A DNA stretch of 48,950 nucleotides, from positions 1 through 48,950 of the forward strand of contig JASHQH010000311.1 in assembly GCA_030037635.1 (NCBI GenBank). Reading direction: 5' to 3'. This document shows, piece by piece, positions 3,199 through 9,939 of this stretch (within the stretch, counting starts at the first letter, position 1; the number at the start of each line of letters is the position of its first letter). The notes below the pieces were generated by a model. That model saw only the letters and a program-made list of their open reading frames with translations, had not been told where the DNA came from and did not search any database. The position numbers and the translations under genes were made by a program. The stretch comes from Acidobacteriaceae bacterium. GTDB lineage: Bacteria; Acidobacteriota; Terriglobia; Terriglobales; Acidobacteriaceae.

Positions 3199-3228
3199 AG
3201 CACTTACGGCAATTCCAGAGTAAGTGCT
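3199..3228. repeat. 9-bp perfect inverted repeat upstream of the sensor kinase gene
   Basis: AGCACTTAC at 3199-3207 and GTAAGTGCT at 3220-3228 are exact reverse complements separated by 12 bases. It lies about 160 bases upstream of the preferred start of the sensor kinase, in a 347-base stretch (3042-3388) that holds no other clear gene. It may be an operator or an RNA hairpin; no T-tract follows, so it is not a typical terminator. Confidence 0.5.
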
Positions 3229-3388
3229 AGCGCCTTCGCCAATCTCTTCGGGGATCGCAGAATCGCTGAGTCTTCACCCGTCGCGACAGGCTCTGCCGTC
3301 GGCTGCCCCCGAACTGGGTCGCAGCGGCTTGTGGTTTCAGGGAATCGTATCTCCGGGATTCGCTGTCGGGCCGGAAAGCCCACACCTT

Positions 3389-4858
3389 ATGGATGTCGCC
3401 AACATTCTTGGAGAACGCAAGCATCCCACCGCGGCGCGGTTCATCGGGGAAACCCTGATCGCGTGCTGGGTGATCGCTCTGCTCACATTCACGGGATTCG
3501 TCCTGCACTTCAATCCTGCGCCACTGGGATTTTTGTTTCTTCTCGTGGTGGTTTGCGAGGCAATCCTTTGCGGCTTCTGGCAGGCTTCCATCGTTTCGCT
3601 GCTGGCGTGCGCATGTCTTGACTACTTCTTCTACCCGCCCCTCTTTCATTTCAGCGTCGCCAATCCTGAGGATTGGGTGGCGCTGGGCGCGTTTCAAGTG
3701 AGCGCGCTCGTGGTAAGCCGTCTCTCCACGATCCACCAGACCACCTGGCGTGAGGCGAAGCTGCAACGCACATCAATGGAACAGCTTTATGAGTTGAGCC
3801 GCAGCACCCTGCTCATCAATTTGCATCAGCCGCCCGGACCGCAACTGGCGCAACTGATTCTGCGCATTTTTGGCGCCCAGGCCGTGGCCATCTTCGATGC
3901 CAACTCCGGAGCGTGCTCTGCCGCCGGCGCCTGGGCAGAGGACGAGCAACAGCTTGCCAGGGAATGTTACCTCGCGCAGGCTGAAGATCATGATCGCCTC
4001 ACGCGAACCTCGCGCAAGCTCCTCCACGCTGGCGGCAAATGCATCGGCGCAATGGCCGTCCGGGGCAATCTCGAAGTACTGGTTGCGGACGCGCTGGCCT
4101 CGCTCACCGCCATCACTCTCGACCGCTGCGTCTCCTTCGAAAAGGAGAGCCAGGTGGAAGCGGCACATCAAAGCGAGCGGCTGCGGGCAGCAGTGCTCGA
4201 CTCTCTAGCGCACGCTGCCAAAACACCGCTGACCGCGATTCAAGCCGCGGCCGATGGATTGAGCGAAGTGGGCAGGCTCAGCCCGGCGCAGCAGCAACTC
4301 CAGGCGCTTATCCGGAACGAGGCGGAGGAATTAAGCCAGTTGAGCACGCGGCTGCTGCAAACCGCCCAGCTTGAAACCGAGGACCTGGCCGTCGCCAGGG
4401 ATGAGATTGTCGTCGCAGACCTGATTCAATCTGTACTTAAAGAGCAGTCCGAACGCATGTCAGGCCATCCCGTTGAGATCGCGGCGCCCGATGCCGGCCT
4501 CACGCTGCGTGGCGATCGCGACCTGCTCTCCATGGCGCTGACGCAGTTTCTTGACAACGCGGCCAAGTACTCCTTTGCCGGAACCGCAGTGAAGGTTTCA
4601 GCCTGGGAGAGCCACGCGCAGGTGCTGCTTTCGGTGCACAATTTTGGCCCCGCCATTCCCATTTCCGACCGCGAGCGCATCTTCCAGCGCTTTTACCGCA
4701 GCGAGAACACGCGCCATCTGGCGGCCGGAACCGGCATCGGCCTTTCCACCGTCATGATGGCGGCCGAAGCGCACCGGGGTCATGTTTGGGTGATTAGTAA
4801 TTCCGAGGAAGGAACTACGTTTTATCTGTCTCTTCCCCAGTCGGGAGGCGCAGGGTAA
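3389..4858 (+). CDS. KdpD-like sensor histidine kinase (DUF4118-GAF-like-HisKA-HATPase)
   Basis: Inner-membrane sensor kinase that should phosphorylate the response regulator encoded next to it. From the ATG at 3389 it has 489 residues: a four-helix DUF4118 membrane region at about 20-115, as in the C-terminal half of KdpD; a GAF-like middle at about 135-255; a HisKA segment with the phosphoacceptor His at about residue 275 (SLAHAAKTPLTAI); and an HATPase with N-box DNAAKYS near 389 and G-box GTGIGLS near 448. The N-terminal KdpD and universal-stress domains of true KdpD are absent. The frame is open back to a GTG at 3224, but that extension does not look like protein of this family, so the later ATG is preferred. 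The stop codon touches the GTG start of the regulator. No kdpFABC genes are in the window, so a role in potassium control is not shown. Confidence 0.88.
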   Translation: MDVANILGERKHPTAARFIGETLIACWVIALLTFTGFVLHFNPAPLGFLFLLVVVCEAILCGFWQASIVSLLACACLDYFFYPPLFHFSVANPEDWVALGAFQVSALVVSRLSTIHQTTWREAKLQRTSMEQLYELSRSTLLINLHQPPGPQLAQLILRIFGAQAVAIFDANSGACSAAGAWAEDEQQLARECYLAQAEDHDRLTRTSRKLLHAGGKCIGAMAVRGNLEVLVADALASLTAITLDRCVSFEKESQVEAAHQSERLRAAVLDSLAHAAKTPLTAIQAAADGLSEVGRLSPAQQQLQALIRNEAEELSQLSTRLLQTAQLETEDLAVARDEIVVADLIQSVLKEQSERMSGHPVEIAAPDAGLTLRGDRDLLSMALTQFLDNAAKYSFAGTAVKVSAWESHAQVLLSVHNFGPAIPISDRERIFQRFYRSENTRHLAAGTGIGLSTVMMAAEAHRGHVWVISNSEEGTTFYLSLPQSGGAG

Positions 4859-5602
4859 GTGAAAGACCAAACCTCAGGCAACCTGCTTATTGTGGATGAC
4901 GAGCGCTCCATCCGGCTTTCGCTGCGCGCGATTCTCAGCAATTTCGGCTACGAGATTGTTGAGGCCGCGCGCGGCGAAGAGGCGCTGGCCCTGGTGCGCA
5001 GCGAGAGCTTCGACGCTGTCCTTCTCGATATCAACATGCCGGGCGTGGGCGGCGTTGAAGTATGCAGGCAGATGCGCAGGGCCGCGCCGCGTTTACCAAT
5101 CGTCATGCTTACCGTGCTTGGCGAAGAAGACCGCAAAGTGGAAGCGCTCGATGCCGGCGCTGACGACTACATTACCAAGCCGTTTCAGTTGCGCGAACTC
5201 ACGGCACGGCTGCGCGCGGCCATGCGCCGCAATCGCGTCTTCGAGGCCGACCAGTCCGCCATCCACATCGGCGATGTACTGCTCGACCCCGAACGCCACG
5301 TAGTCGAAAAGCGCGGCCGCCGTGTTCACCTCACCCCGCGGCAGTTCGAGTTACTGCATTTCCTCATGGCGAATGCGGGAAGGCCAATCCCTCATGCCAG
5401 GATCCTGCGCTCGGTGTGGGGCCCCGAGTATGGCGGCGAGTTGGAATACCTGCGCACCTTCATCCGCCAGATCCGCATCAAGATCGAGGACGATCCCGCC
5501 CATCCGGAATACCTCGTCACCGACTCTCACATCGGTTATCGCTTTAACGAAGAAGTGGAGGCTGCCGAACCACCCGGCGAGCCAAACCCCCCGGGTGAAT
5601 GA
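4859..5602 (+). CDS. KdpE-like OmpR-family response regulator
   Basis: DNA-binding response regulator paired with the preceding kinase. The receiver domain (about residues 8-120) has the acidic pair D13-D14, the phosphoacceptor D57 in DAVLLDINMPG, T85, and K107 in DDYITKPF. The winged-helix Trans_reg_C domain (about 135-235) includes LTPRQFELLHFLMANAG, RSVWGPEYGGELEYLR and YLVTDSHIGYRF, which resemble KdpE closely. A short acidic, Pro-rich tail follows. Translation starts at a GTG that directly follows the kinase TAA with no spacer, so the two are surely co-translated. At 247 residues it has normal family length. The regulon is unknown; the name KdpE is not used because no kdp transporter genes are seen. 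Confidence 0.9.
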   Translation: MKDQTSGNLLIVDDERSIRLSLRAILSNFGYEIVEAARGEEALALVRSESFDAVLLDINMPGVGGVEVCRQMRRAAPRLPIVMLTVLGEEDRKVEALDAGADDYITKPFQLRELTARLRAAMRRNRVFEADQSAIHIGDVLLDPERHVVEKRGRRVHLTPRQFELLHFLMANAGRPIPHARILRSVWGPEYGGELEYLRTFIRQIRIKIEDDPAHPEYLVTDSHIGYRFNEEVEAAEPPGEPNPPGE

Positions 5603-5652: not shown

Positions 5653-5682
5653 TTGGGCGTCGCACCGCGTCTGTGATATATT
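5653..5682 (+). promoter_or_regulatory. Possible promoter of tRNA-Lys
   Basis: TTGGGC at 5653-5658 and TATATT at 5677-5682 are separated by 18 bases; the -10 matches the sigma-70 consensus at 5 of 6 positions but the -35 at only 3. A start near 5689 would give a leader of about 70 bases before the tRNA. Confidence 0.35.
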
Positions 5683-5757
5683 TTTCAAGGTGCGAGAGGT
5701 ATTTCTTCTCGGCTGACGCCTGCGCCAGATCGTCTCGCGCAGCGTTACAACCCTCAA

Positions 5758-5833
5758 GGACGCGTAGCTCAACTGGCAGAGCATTCGGCTCTTAACCGAC
5801 AGGTTGAAGGTTCGATTCCTTCCGCGTCCACCA
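5758..5833 (+). tRNA. tRNA-Lys (anticodon CTT)
   Basis: The cloverleaf can be folded by eye: acceptor stem GGACGCG/CGCGTCC, D-arm GCTC/GAGC, anticodon loop CTCTTAA with anticodon CTT at 5791-5793, a 5-base variable loop, and T-arm GAAGG-TTCGATT-CCTTC. The terminal CCA is encoded. The lowest pair of the anticodon stem (T opposite C) is mismatched. The 24 bases from the T-loop to just beyond the CCA are repeated twice more immediately downstream (see tandem repeat). Confidence 0.95.
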
Positions 5834-6054
5834 GTTTCCCCCTCGACATTTCGGCTCGAAGGTCCTTCGCTGCGCTCAGGATTTCGCCTGCGGGCTCAGA
5901 CGCCCGCAAAGTGGCTCAAGTTCGATTCCTTCCGCGTCCACCAGTTTCCCCCTCGACATTTCGGCTCGAAGGTCCTTCACTGCGCTCAGGATTTCGCCTG
6001 CGGGCTCAGACGCCCGCAAAGCGGCTCAAGTTCGATTCCTTCCGCGGCCACCAG
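5811..6054 (+). repeat. 110-bp tandem repeat containing the tRNA-Lys 3' end
   Basis: Two nearly identical 110-base units (5811-5920 and 5921-6030) and a partial third (6031-6054). Each begins with the T-loop and 3' acceptor part of tRNA-Lys (TTCGATTCCTTCCGCGTCCA, then CCAG), so the first copy is part of the real tRNA and the others are 3' fragments. Each full unit also carries a weak hairpin around TCCTTCGCTGCGCTCAGGA and a perfect 7-bp hairpin TGCGGGC/GCCCGCA (5889-5908 and 5999-6018). Differences between copies are few: a G/A change in the first hairpin, T/C in GTGGCTC versus GCGGCTC, and a T-to-G change in the acceptor part of the last copy that would break pairing. No integrase gene is nearby. 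The short frames translated across this array are not genes. Confidence 0.9.
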
Positions 6055-6188
6055 CCTTCGCCCGCTCGGCTGCGGCTCGGCAAGCCTCCTCAAGACGTGC
6101 AGTCGCGCCCTGGCTTCCAGCGGCGGCGGACATTCCTGTGACAAAATTGCGATAGCCGTTCAAGGCCGTTTTATCGGCAAGCAATTGC

Positions 6189-7091
6189 ATGAGTGAACAG
6201 GGTCAAATTCGCATCGGAATGTCTGGCTGGCGCTACGATGAATGGCGCGGAACCTTCTACCCTGAGGGTCTCGCCCAGCGGCGCGAGCTTGAATTCGCCT
6301 CGCGGCAGCTCAAATCCATCGAGCTGAACGGCACCTTCTACTCGCTGCAAAAGCCGCCAAGCTACCTGCAATGGACAAAAGAAACGCCCGACGATTTTGT
6401 TTTCTCGGTGAAGGGCACGCAATTCATTACCCACGTCAGGAAGCTCGAAAACGTGGCCACTCCTCTGGCCAATTTTCTGGCCCAGGGACTGCTGCGGCTG
6501 GGTCGCAAACTGGGGCCGATCCTCTGGCAATTCCCGCCGCCCTTCAAGTTCAATGCGCAGCTTCTGCAGGATTTTTTCGATCTGCTGCCGCGGACTCACA
6601 AGCAGGCGGCACTCTACGCGCGCCAGCGCGATGAATGGATGGCAGAGCGCTCATGGCTCGAAGTCGAAGAGGACTTGCCTCTTCGCTACGCCATTGAAGC
6701 GCGCAATAAGAGCTTCGCAGTGCCCGAATACATCTCTCTGCTGCGCAAGAACCAGATCGCCGTGGTTGTTGCCGACACCGTGAAATGGCCGCGCATGATG
6801 GATATTACAGCCGACGACTTTGTTTACTGCCGCCTCCATGGCAACGAAGAGCAGTATCCCAATGGCTATGACGCCGAGGGTATCGATACCTGGGCGCATC
6901 GGGTTCTGGCCTGGTCGCGCGGTGAGGAAGCGACCGACGGCCTGAGGGTGCACCCTGAGCCTGCGCCGAAGCAGGCTGCTCGCGATGTATTCGTCTATTT
7001 TGACGACGACGTCAAAGTGCGTGCGCCTCACGACGCGCTGAGCCTGACGAATCGAATTGCCGAGCTCTCCGGCTCGCTTAGGCCTTCCTGA
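6189..7091 (+). CDS. DUF72 family protein
   Basis: Member of the DUF72 (YecE-like) family, a TIM-barrel-like fold of unknown function found in bacteria and archaea. Landmarks in order are RIGMSGWRYDEWRGTFYP at the N-terminus, the FASRQLKSIELNGTFYSL block, FVFSVKGTQFITH, the GPILWQFPPPFKFN segment, the RYAIEARNKSF motif (E-x-R-x-x-S), and DFVYCRLHGNEEQY. At 300 residues it is slightly longer than the usual 240-290 because of a C-terminal tail. The ATG at 6189 has only a weak ribosome binding site, but the family N-terminus begins just after it. It precedes the AmmeMemoRadiSam pair by about 200 bases on the same strand; a functional link is not shown. Confidence 0.92.
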   Translation: MSEQGQIRIGMSGWRYDEWRGTFYPEGLAQRRELEFASRQLKSIELNGTFYSLQKPPSYLQWTKETPDDFVFSVKGTQFITHVRKLENVATPLANFLAQGLLRLGRKLGPILWQFPPPFKFNAQLLQDFFDLLPRTHKQAALYARQRDEWMAERSWLEVEEDLPLRYAIEARNKSFAVPEYISLLRKNQIAVVVADTVKWPRMMDITADDFVYCRLHGNEEQYPNGYDAEGIDTWAHRVLAWSRGEEATDGLRVHPEPAPKQAARDVFVYFDDDVKVRAPHDALSLTNRIAELSGSLRPS

Positions 7092-7288
7092 CGCCGCTCC
7101 GGGTGCGCCACATCACTGCCAAATCCCTCTTCCCGGAGTTAGACCACAAGTCATGGTGGTGCGTCCGCGGCTGCTGCGATAAACATTGCAGTTGACCTCT
7201 CTGATGCCAGCAGCTTCACTTGAATCGCCCAGGCAGCTCTTTCTCCCGGCAGCTTCCGCGTCGCATCGCCACACGCTGGACTTTGCGG

Positions 7289-8383
7289 ATGATCAACCCA
7301 AACCCAACTGAACCGCGAGACTTCGTGGCGCGACGCCTCGACGGAGCCGTAGAGAGTGATGCGCAATTCACCTTCGAGGCCAGGTTCTATGAGAAAATGC
7401 CCAACCGCAAGATCCGTTGCAAGCTCTGCCCGCGCCAATGCATCGTGGACGACAAGGAGCGCGGTTATTGCGGCGTGCGCGAAAATCGCGGCGGAACCTG
7501 CTACACCCTCGTCCACTCGCGCGTTTGCGCGGCGCACATTGATCCCATTGAGAAGAAGCCGCTCTTCCATTACCTGCCCGGCACCACGGCGTTCTCAATC
7601 GCTACCGCCGGCTGCAACGTGAACTGCAGGTTCTGCCAGAACTATGACGTCTCGCAGTCGCGGCCTGAAGAGATACCCGCCGACTACATTTCCCCGCATC
7701 ACGCAGCCGAGGTCGCGCTCCAGTACAACTGCCCCACCATCGCCTTCACTTACGGCGAGCCGGTGGTCTTTGCCGAGTACGTGATGGACACCGCCGACGC
7801 CGCTCACGCCGCCGGCGTAAGCAGCATCGTGGTCTCGAACGGATATATCGAGCACGACTCGCTTACGCAGGCCTACGGCAAAGTGGATGCGGTCAAGATT
7901 GACCTCAAGGCCTTCAGAGAAAGTTATTACGCCAAGGTCGTCGTCGGCCAGTTGAAGCCGGTTCTCGAATCGCTCGTGACGCTGCGCAAAATGGACAAGT
8001 GGACCGAGATCGTCTACCTCGTGGTGCCCACGCTCAACGACGATGACGCCGGGTTCCGCGGCCTCGCCGCCTGGATCAAGACCAATCTCGGCGCCGATGT
8101 CCCCCTGCACTTCACGCAGTTTCATCCCGGCTATCTGCTCAAGAATCTGCCCATCACGCCCGTCCCCACTTTGGAGCGCGCCAAGGCCATCGCCGATGCC
8201 GAGGGCCTGCACTACGTCTATATCGGCAACGTGCCCGGCCATCCCGCGCAGAACACCTGGTGCCCGCACTGCCGCAAATTGCTGGTGGAGCGCGTGGGCT
8301 TTGCGGCCAGCCAGATGCTCATCCGCAAAGACTCCACTTGCCCCTGGTGCCGGCACGCCATCCCCGGAATCTGGCACGCTTGA
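7289..8383 (+). CDS. amrS: AmmeMemoRadiSam system radical SAM enzyme
   Basis: Radical SAM protein of the PflA-like subgroup that co-occurs with MEMO and AMMECR1 proteins; its substrate is unknown. Counting from the ATG at 7289 (364 residues), an N-terminal Cys cluster CKLCPRQC at 44-51 and YCGVREN at about 60 precede the Fe-S motif CNVNCRFC with Cys at 109, 113 and 116, which binds the [4Fe-4S] cluster. Further landmarks are FTYGEPVVF, VSNGYI, KVDAVKIDLKAF and the C-terminal paired CxxC units WCPHCRK and CPWCRH, which may bind zinc or a second cluster. The frame is open back to a TTG at 7220; the ATG is preferred because the 23 extra residues are not family-like. The next gene, 23 bases downstream, encodes the other two parts of the system in one chain. 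Confidence 0.93.
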   Translation: MINPNPTEPRDFVARRLDGAVESDAQFTFEARFYEKMPNRKIRCKLCPRQCIVDDKERGYCGVRENRGGTCYTLVHSRVCAAHIDPIEKKPLFHYLPGTTAFSIATAGCNVNCRFCQNYDVSQSRPEEIPADYISPHHAAEVALQYNCPTIAFTYGEPVVFAEYVMDTADAAHAAGVSSIVVSNGYIEHDSLTQAYGKVDAVKIDLKAFRESYYAKVVVGQLKPVLESLVTLRKMDKWTEIVYLVVPTLNDDDAGFRGLAAWIKTNLGADVPLHFTQFHPGYLLKNLPITPVPTLERAKAIADAEGLHYVYIGNVPGHPAQNTWCPHCRKLLVERVGFAASQMLIRKDSTCPWCRHAIPGIWHA

Positions 8384-8406
8384 AGCAGCACAGGAGGTTA
8401 TGACCC

Positions 8407-9939
8407 ATGAAGATCGCAAGGAGATCCGCCATGGCATGGATGATGACGCAATGCATTGCCCTCCTGATCACCGCGCCCGTTTTGCGTGTTCGCGCATCAT
8501 CGGGCCCGGCCGTCGCTGAGAAAGTCCGGCCGGCTGCCGTCGCCGGCGCATTCTATCCCGCCGATCCCAAAGAACTATCGAAAATGATCGATAACCTGCT
8601 CGCGCAGGCCGCGCCTCCGCCCGTCGATGGCCAGATTCTGGCGGCCGTCGCGCCGCACGCCGGTTATCCATATTCCGGCCCCGTGGCCGCCTGGACTTAC
8701 GCCGCACTCAAAGGCCACAAGTACGCCCGCGTTGTCGTCATCGCGCCCTCGCATTACGTGGGCTTTGGTTTTACCTCTGTTTACGACGGCGATGCGTATA
8801 CCACCCCGCTCGGGCAGATCCTTGTCGATAAAGAGTTCGCGCGTCGCCTGGCGAAGATGAGCCCCACCATTGCGCTCTCTGATAAAGGCCACCAATTTAC
8901 TGCCGATGCTCCCGAGCACTCCATTGAGGTCGAGCTGCCGTGGCTGCAAAAGGTCCTCGGCGACTTTGAGTTGGTGCCCGTTGTCATGGGCGACCAAAGT
9001 TACCAGAGCAGCCGCGCTCTTGGCGTGGCGCTTGCCAAATTGCTCCATAATCAGCACGACACGCTGGTTCTGGCCAGCTCTGATCTTTCGCACTATCACA
9101 CCTACGACGAAGCCGAGACCATCGACCACAGGACTCTGCACGCGCTTCAGGCGTGGGACTACCTGAGCATGTCAAGCAACTTCGAGTCGCGCGTATGGGA
9201 GGCGTGCGGCGGAGCGCCGATTATAGCTGCCATGATCTACGCCGAGCGCATGGGCGCAAGCCGGGCCGAAGTGCTCCGCTACGCCAACTCCGGCGACGTG
9301 ACCAGCGACCATTCTCGCGTGGTGGGCTACAGCGCCGATCTTTTCATCAAATCGGCGCAGGCTGCAGATCCGCCGGCGCCGTTTTCGCTCACCGATCAGG
9401 AAGAAACCGAACTGCTTGCAGTAGCGCGGAAGTCGGTCGAATCCATCATTGAAAACAAGAATCCCTACGCGCCGCAGCCCAGCACGAGCGAAACTCTGAA
9501 CCGCGAACACGGCGCTTTCGTCACGCTGAGCGAAGGCGGCGAACTACGCGGCTGCGTCGGCTACACCACGCCCATCAGGCCGCTCTACATGACGGTGCGC
9601 GACACCGCCACGCTGGCCGCCTTGCGCGACCCGCGCTTTCCGCCCGTCACGGTGTCTGAGCTGCCGCGGCTTTCCTACGAGATCTCCGTGCTCTCGCCGC
9701 TGCGGCGCGTGACCAACGTCGAGCAGATCAAGGTGGGACGCGACGGCCTGCTCATCAAGAACGCCGACAGCGAGGGGCTGCTGCTGCCGCAGGTTCCCGT
9801 CGAGCAGAAATGGGATCGCCAGACCTTTCTTGAAGAGACCTGCCGCAAGGCCGGCATGGACCCCAACTGCTGGAAGGATGAGAACACTGACATCTTCAGC
9901 TTTACAGCGGTTGTGTTCAACGAGAAAGGCAGGGAATAG
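8407..9939 (+). CDS. MEMO-AMMECR1 fusion protein of the AmmeMemoRadiSam system, with signal-like N-terminus
   Basis: One 510-residue chain joins the B (MEMO) and A (AMMECR1) proteins of the system. The MEMO part (about 42-318) keeps the metal-site residues known from human MEMO1: H84 in VAPHAGYPYSG, H116 in APSHY, D226 and H229 in SSDLSHYHTYDEA, and C267 in WEACGGAP. The AMMECR1 part (about 330-505) has HGAFVTL, the signature LRGCVGY at 380-386, and RDPRFPPVTVSELPRLSYEI. The first 30 residues (basic MKIARR, then WMMTQCIALLITAPVL, then RVRASS) look like a Sec signal peptide or membrane anchor, which is unexpected for a system whose radical SAM partner should be cytoplasmic. The start is supported by AGGAGG about 10 bases upstream. 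It follows amrS closely and is likely co-transcribed. The joint function of the system is not established. Confidence 0.92.
   Translation: MKIARRSAMAWMMTQCIALLITAPVLRVRASSGPAVAEKVRPAAVAGAFYPADPKELSKMIDNLLAQAAPPPVDGQILAAVAPHAGYPYSGPVAAWTYAALKGHKYARVVVIAPSHYVGFGFTSVYDGDAYTTPLGQILVDKEFARRLAKMSPTIALSDKGHQFTADAPEHSIEVELPWLQKVLGDFELVPVVMGDQSYQSSRALGVALAKLLHNQHDTLVLASSDLSHYHTYDEAETIDHRTLHALQAWDYLSMSSNFESRVWEACGGAPIIAAMIYAERMGASRAEVLRYANSGDVTSDHSRVVGYSADLFIKSAQAADPPAPFSLTDQEETELLAVARKSVESIIENKNPYAPQPSTSETLNREHGAFVTLSEGGELRGCVGYTTPIRPLYMTVRDTATLAALRDPRFPPVTVSELPRLSYEISVLSPLRRVTNVEQIKVGRDGLLIKNADSEGLLLPQVPVEQKWDRQTFLEETCRKAGMDPNCWKDENTDIFSFTAVVFNEKGRE

Follow-up and report, generated by a model that had tools for sequence, protein, structure and literature searches.

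To our knowledge, MEMO, AMMECR1, and the radical SAM enzyme AmrS are widely conserved, and their function is not settled. In the literature searched, no paper was found on the joint function of the three proteins, on a Tat-exported radical SAM enzyme, or on DUF362 together with radical SAM. An exported AmmeMemoRadiSam variant was likewise not found in that literature, which did not extend to Burroughs et al. 2019 (J Biol Chem 294:10211), a paper that may describe secreted forms. The name of the system appears a single time in each of five papers. Excerpts of PMC6393860, PMC10924467, and PMC7694686 contain nothing on export of the AMMECR1-MEMO-AmrS system. "Memo-Ammecr1 systems" are named in an excerpt of PMC7159879, and the AMMECR1 domain is listed as an anaerobe marker (3.38 vs 50.66) in an excerpt of PMC13386939.

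The window analyzed here is a stretch of 48,950 nucleotides from an Acidobacteriaceae genome (G000). On its forward strand, an open reading frame with an ATG start (8407..9939) encodes a MEMO-AMMECR1 fusion of 510 amino acids that is matched by both Pfam (Memo, residues 43–309, E 1e-63; AMMECR1, residues 338–504, E 5.4e-55) and NCBIfam. The protein exceeds the curated cut-offs of AmmeMemoRadiSam protein B (TIGR04336; 269.5 bits vs 26) and protein A (TIGR04335; 183.4 bits vs 99), which bears out the preliminary description of both domains in one frame; its remark that the fusion sets a 1:1 domain ratio is true but trivial. The MEMO domain spans residues 41–310 (8527..9336, forward strand; TIGR04336, with fold matches to the MEMO1 structures 3bcz, 7kq8, and 7l5c), and the AMMECR1 domain spans residues 335–504 (9409..9918, forward strand; TIGR04335, with a fold match to 1vaj). 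The five residues named earlier, H84, H116, D226, H229, and C267, are present at those positions and are presumably the MEMO metal ligands (putative metal binding). All five are invariant in 23/23 aligned fusions, and in a wider alignment of 70 fusions, H84, D226, and H229 are invariant and H116 and C267 are kept in at least 90%. The LRGCVGY motif is also present as described, beginning at residue 380. An assembly accident was rejected as the origin of the fusion, given that MEMO-AMMECR1 fusions are found in many genomes and phyla.

The N-terminus ahead of the MEMO domain is signal-like. Residues 1–30 (8407..8496, forward strand) resemble a signal peptide by eye, by a hydropathy rule, and by comparison with the N-termini of relatives, with an MKIARR start (n-region KIARR), a hydrophobic core, and VRA before SS. 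The basic-hydrophobic segment ending in VRASS that was described previously is confirmed: the first eight residues have a net charge of +3 and are followed by a hydropathy peak and then VRASS. The best 18-residue mean hydropathy of the N-terminus is 1.71 vs a maximum of 1.24 in residues 39–510, and the best 12-residue mean is 2.13 vs 1.89. Such an N-terminus occurs in 3 of the 17 open reading frames of the window that are backed by a Shine-Dalgarno sequence, the fusion included. The hydrophobic core is moderate, and shuffled versions of residues 1–38 reach the 12-residue peak in 935/5000 cases, so the hydrophobicity is due to composition and not to a special order. In the AlphaFold model of the fusion (70-row alignment, mean pLDDT 93.3), residues 1–30 have low confidence (block means 47, 55, and 49), with a helix at residues 8–18. 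A lipobox ending in Cys was not found in the window fusion; among 109 signal-bearing fusions, a wider PROSITE-like pattern matched 15 and a strict pattern matched two. Based on these features, the segment is probably a signal for export or anchoring.

Annotation of the start codon bears directly on this prediction. Separate MEMO genes mostly begin close to the domain, as would be expected if the start of the fusion were misplaced and translation really began at about residue 38; the product would then be an ordinary MEMO-AMMECR1 protein of the cytoplasm. This explanation is very improbable and was rejected, since the Shine-Dalgarno sequence, the conserved start position, and the codon content are all against it: AGGAGG (8392..8397, forward strand) lies 9 bases before the ATG at 8407, the position of the first start is kept in many relatives of the window's genus, and codons 27 to 40 contain no in-frame ATG, GTG, or TTG. 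Of the 23 loci compared, the window's own counted, 12 have AGGAGG or AGGAG ahead of the corresponding start. A second in-frame ATG at 8431 has its own Shine-Dalgarno-like AAGGAG, and some relatives have only the first ATG. In L005, the ATG that matches 8431 is the first listed start, which would give a signal without the basic n-region.

Signal-like N-termini were scored by a rule that requires, before the domain start, either a 12-residue stretch with a mean hydropathy of at least 1.8 or an RR/KR motif with a stretch of at least 1.2 downstream of it; start codons were picked by a simple score of start type and Shine-Dalgarno match. By this rule, 71 of the 82 distinct Acidobacteriota fusions among the matches listed are signal-like, 10 are not, and one has no start, and because the rule was fixed after a first look at the N-termini, these counts are a description rather than a blind test. 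The export or anchoring of the fusion predicted in the preliminary description is in agreement with these homologs and withstands the refuting condition set there, under which most homologs would lack the N-terminal extension. Among control genes from fusion-bearing genomes (20 stretches hand-picked from the matches listed), 0/14 separate AMMECR1 and 1/7 separate MEMO genes are signal-like. One separate MEMO gene with a signal-like N-terminus (L250) is found in a genome with three AmrS matches (G118). The rule found no RR/KR motif in 58 of the 71 signal-like fusions; these fusions look Sec-type and would leave the cell unfolded, not as folded partners. Signal-less fusions (10/82) include those of L034, L035, L096, L102, and L117, which adjoin a Tat-like AmrS.

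For the radical SAM partner, many Acidobacteriota hold two sets, namely a plain set (AmrS without an extension, separate MEMO and AMMECR1) and the fusion set. One or both domains were matched in 188 of the 297 genomes of the phylum surveyed. Among 80 genomes with a fusion-spanning match that were searched for AmrS, 79 have at least one and 67 at least two. An AmrS gene on the same strand lies close to the fusion in 42 of 81 fusions, both the fusions and the AmrS rows being chosen by hand among the matches listed. The linked AmrS compared here come from 40 of these 42 loci (the window's own and that of G136 were left out), and the unlinked AmrS from 40 of 107 listed stretches of the same genomes. 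A Tat-like N-terminus by the hydropathy/motif rule was scored in 37/40 linked vs 2/40 unlinked AmrS (Fisher 1.5e-16). The NCBI Tat model TIGR01409, which is independent of the hydropathy rule, points in the same direction with lower sensitivity (8/40 linked vs 2/40 unlinked N-termini at E 0.05), and the NapA model matches 2/40 linked N-termini. Within the window's genus, AmrS is Tat-like by eye in 13 of 16 judgeable loci. These patterns suggest that the linked radical SAM partner is usually extracytoplasmic, like the fusion, a surprising location for an enzyme of this type. TatC was found in 8/8 genomes searched (vs 11/14 control genomes), including the window's genome, and cytochrome c assembly genes were found in 15/15 (14 genomes with a CxxCH locus plus the window's) vs 9/14 control genomes; such genes are common in controls and thus permit export but give no support for it. 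Two other arrangements were also observed. In G325, an AMMECR1-like domain precedes AmrS in one frame of 621 residues (L061 and L143, the same gene), which is a different fusion of the same parts. In L105, a frame of 754 residues lies between the fusion and AmrS and looks by eye like a membrane protein with a spermidine-synthase-like part.

Two types of putative helper accompany the linked AmrS. A DUF362 gene adjoins AmrS in many loci; PF04015 was confirmed in 3/3 examined and also matches the AmrS-linked places of G034 and G018. An RR motif is present at the DUF362 start in 15/17 genes of one locus set and 11/14 of another. DUF362 was found in the fetched stretch for 47/90 signal-bearing vs 3/56 signal-less AmrS rows, in stretches of varying length. 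This count left out L004, L005, L006, L015, and L020 (contig ends or no linked gene), scored the short loci L034 and L035 as lacking DUF362 although longer stretches around these genes (L092 and L093) include it, and contains two genes twice (L102 and L208; L106 and L212); the three signal-less rows with DUF362 (L069, L087, and L171) include visible RR motifs. An excerpt of PMC11770544 places DUF362 and the lactate racemase family in a single Pfam clan. The second type is a CxxCH (heme-c-like) motif between the Tat core and the enzyme, which is present in 14/40 linked AmrS and marks one AmrS clade. A c-type cytochrome model matches 3/40 linked N-termini and a decaheme model 1/40. The motif matters because heme c attachment takes place outside the cytoplasm. 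Signal-bearing rows with CxxCH have DUF362 in 0/17 cases, vs 47/73 of the other signal-bearing rows, and since the CxxCH clade is one lineage in which two rows are one gene, these cases are not independent.

The window itself departs from this pattern. Its amrS gene (7289..8383, forward strand; the start is uncertain, either ATG 7289 or the listed TTG 7220) exceeds the TIGR04337 cut-off (371 bits vs 220) and ends with TGA at 8381–8383, leaving the gap of 23 bases to the fusion ATG that was noted earlier. Across 21 AmrS that belong to the fusion set, the window's included, the radical-SAM CxxxCxxC cysteines and two more cysteine groups do not vary. No Tat segment was seen in the window AmrS, no Tat model is among the 25 families listed for it, and no CxxCH was found in its N-terminal segment (row L001). 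A residual Tat segment was rejected, as similarity to relatives ends near 7355. In the nearest relative (L269, genome G034), the order is the tRNA-Lys region, DUF362, Tat-type amrS, and the fusion. Compared with this locus, the window matches in the left border at 5671–5833, which contains tRNA-Lys (5758–5833), and blastn similarity resumes at 7355, near the start of the AmrS domain. The segment between (5834..7354, no strand assigned) takes the place of the DUF362 gene and the Tat-coding stretch of amrS in L269 and contains a DUF72 gene (6189–7091, forward strand) with no tblastn match in the stretches of 11 relatives. A chimeric contig is a less likely cause of the DUF362 absence, since both flanks, with the tRNA-Lys region to the left and amrS to the right, align with L269 and keep its order. 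Further upstream in the window (3224–5602) lie a sensor kinase with DUF4118 and an OmpR-type regulator, which we take to be a Kdp-like pair.

Across the loci compared, DUF362 and a Tat-type AmrS are either both present (14 loci, 13 from the window's genus and the named L224) or both absent (4 loci, including the window). The 20 fetched loci of the genus comprise 13 with both, three with neither, and four unjudged (L271 and L282 at contig ends; L272 and L285 without AmrS in the stretch), to which the window and L224 were added. The four loci with neither are spread over at least two branches in the AmrS tree. The simplest and most likely reading is that, in the window lineage, a single replacement removed the neighboring DUF362 and the AmrS Tat signal together. 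The window arrangement, with an exported-looking fusion and a cytoplasmic-looking AmrS, is then best regarded as an exception and a derived state. The earlier proposal of a cytoplasmic radical SAM partner is consistent with the window AmrS sequence and fails for the system, in which linked AmrS are Tat-like in 37/40 loci and in 13/16 by eye within the genus. Such a split topology is thus compatible with the window sequence, yet appears to be derived. The idea that the chain is acted on before export is not the natural reading either, because the linked AmrS is usually Tat-like and both parts seem destined for the outside.

A relocated DUF362 gene is disfavored. The window's genome has six PF04015 matches, one of which scores 293 bits with the profile of AmrS-linked copies; the linked copies of L269, L274, and L275 score 378 to 402 bits with the same profile. 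This high-scoring copy is 48% identical to that of L269, vs 64 to 66% among the linked copies of L269, L274, and L275, and by score and identity, without a tree, it reads as a paralog. This copy (L299, contig 329 of G000) adjoins a second PF04015 gene, and similar pairs are present in G034, G018, G019, and G024. Given that this paralog persists elsewhere in the genome, the function of DUF362 may have been retained. The window's genome, 91% complete in 352 contigs, yielded one fusion and one AmrS; at this completeness, a plain set may have escaped detection.

Selection on the two genes bears on whether the system still works in this lineage. The dN/dS values of AmrS are 0.12 and 0.13 for the window against L002 and L003 and 0.07 between L002 and L003; by triangle arithmetic, the branch values are about 0.2 for the window, 0.06 for L002, and 0.08 for L003. 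The higher window value is what would be expected if the system were decaying after the loss of the neighboring DUF362 and the AmrS signal. Such decay is rather improbable, as the AmrS value remains well under 1, the reading frame is uninterrupted, and the cysteines are intact; the window AmrS appears to be still under purifying selection. For the fusion, five comparisons with the window gave dN/dS of 0.21 to 0.63 in the first 38 residues and 0.08 to 0.17 in the domains. The faster evolution of the N-terminus is as relaxed constraint would give and may fit a second explanation, in which the N-terminus is an uncleaved anchor or relic and the protein stays in the cytoplasm or faces it, working with a cytoplasmic AmrS. 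The signal-less window AmrS, the 935 shuffles that equal the hydropathy peak, and the weak fusion cores of the genus relatives L014 and L015, whose AmrS also lack a signal, agree with an anchor or relic. This explanation is likewise rather improbable, because dN/dS of the first 38 residues is below 1 in all five comparisons and L013 and L021 keep strong fusion cores though their AmrS have no signal.

The distribution of signals beyond the genus suggests that the fusion set is old. In a tree of 148 AmrS rows, 91 signal-bearing rows fall within one group of 106 (SH-aLRT 85) and none among the other 42, and the signal label requires at least 12 changes vs about 45 in shuffles; this is a quick tree in which related rows are not independent. 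The clustering of the label makes the fusion set look like an old branch with several losses. Among other phyla, a scan of named genomes covered the best 80 of at least 590 loci encoding a relative. In these, the signal states of fusion and AmrS agree in 28 of 35 pairs of one locus (p 0.015; both signals in 23, neither in five, the fusion only in three, AmrS only in four). The table omits pairs without a callable start (e.g., L175, L229, and L238), includes five opposite-strand pairs, and scores the AmrS of L171 and L215 as having no signal despite a visible RR/KR motif. L223 (Gammaproteobacteria) and L248 (Burkholderiales) have neither signal. RR-type AmrS signals were found in Acidobacteriota, Planctomycetota, KSB1, delta-proteobacterial, and Chloroflexi loci, KR-type signals in Bacteroidota loci and one Aminicenantes, and mostly plain hydrophobic signals in five Omnitrophota loci, all among the same best 80 of at least 590. 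Many fusions in this set are signal-less, and many of these also have no linked AmrS, so a fusion as such is no proof of export. Overall, the predicted signals of fusion and AmrS co-vary while the enzyme remains intact.

Taken together, these findings make it likely, with some reservation, that the window fusion belongs to an exported AMMECR1-MEMO-radical SAM branch that underwent lineage-specific loss. In its usual form, this branch would combine a fusion whose signal is Sec-like, or at times lipoprotein-like, with an AmrS whose signal is Tat-like, accompanied by either DUF362, mostly with RR at its start and often beside AmrS, or CxxCH within AmrS in one clade, and it would coexist with a plain cytoplasmic set in many genomes. 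The fusion would be threaded out by Sec and fold outside, and the activase-like AmrS, folded with its clusters, would leave by Tat, such that both reach the outside and meet there. The target of AmrS might then be the fusion, or else a ligand that sits between the metal site of MEMO and the LRGC loop of AMMECR1, and DUF362 or the CxxCH segment may serve AmrS, perhaps in electron supply. In the window lineage, replacement between tRNA-Lys and the AmrS domain would have removed DUF362 and the AmrS Tat signal at once, and AmrS would have to act either ahead of export or on a different target. The main obstacle is the supply of SAM and electrons outside the cytoplasm, since both SAM and low-potential electrons are regarded as confined to the cell interior. 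This obstacle favors an explanation in which the radical chemistry takes place in the cytoplasm, on the partner or on AmrS itself, and the Tat-type AmrS is exported afterwards to act outside as a binding or metal protein; Tat indeed transports folded proteins loaded with cofactors. Such an order of events is somewhat unlikely, considering that 58 of the 71 signal-like fusions have no RR/KR motif and that the cluster cysteines of AmrS remain invariant.

A broader version of the exported-branch reading, put forward tentatively and with less than even confidence, is that of an ancient extracytoplasmic branch spanning several phyla, whose radical SAM enzyme, still intact, is active outside and is helped by covalent heme c in one clade or DUF362 in another. 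If the exported branch is real, radical SAM chemistry would extend beyond the cytoplasm, and SAM or a SAM-like donor would have to be available outside; how a radical enzyme that depends on SAM obtains its supply there would then become a question. The system would also become testable by secretion genetics, and far fewer substrates would come into question if the whole branch, served by a DUF362 or heme-type helper of its own, acts outside the cytoplasm. The exported branch itself would be a more interesting result than the split-topology idea, and the window lineage may serve as a natural experiment in which the enzyme signal and the neighboring DUF362 are missing and the signal-like start of the fusion is kept.

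Comparison with known systems places the parts on familiar ground. As in AmmeMemoRadiSam (TIGR04335, TIGR04336, and TIGR04337), all three families are above cut-off, two of them fused here; the differences are the signal-like N-terminus of the window fusion (separate MEMO and AMMECR1 genes are signal-like in 1/7 and 0/14 cases) and the Tat-like signal carried by the AmrS of the window's relatives. The MEMO part shares the fold of human MEMO1 (PDB 3bcz; 7kq8, iron-bound; 7l5c, copper-bound) and its sequence over residues 41–247 (E about 8e-19), whereas the window protein is bacterial, fused, and signal-like at its N-terminus. Residues of about 326–507 resemble the AMMECR1 structures 1vaj, 1zq7, and 1wsc in fold and sequence, although those are separate archaeal proteins. 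For AmrS, the model of the L213 protein (mean pLDDT 89.5) has pyruvate formate-lyase activating enzyme (3cb8) as its best fold match (TM 0.82 over the target, 16% identity), and this nearest fold may suggest action on a peptide or protein. However, AmrS differs in having additional cysteine segments at both termini and an export-like signal in this branch, and the window AmrS is below the NCBIfam equivalog cut-off for that enzyme (65 bits vs 232). Like Tat-exported iron-sulfur/molybdenum proteins (e.g., NapA), the linked AmrS has an RR motif at its start, with 8/40 matching TIGR01409. The domains themselves are known, and no Tat-exported radical SAM enzyme turned up in the literature searched.
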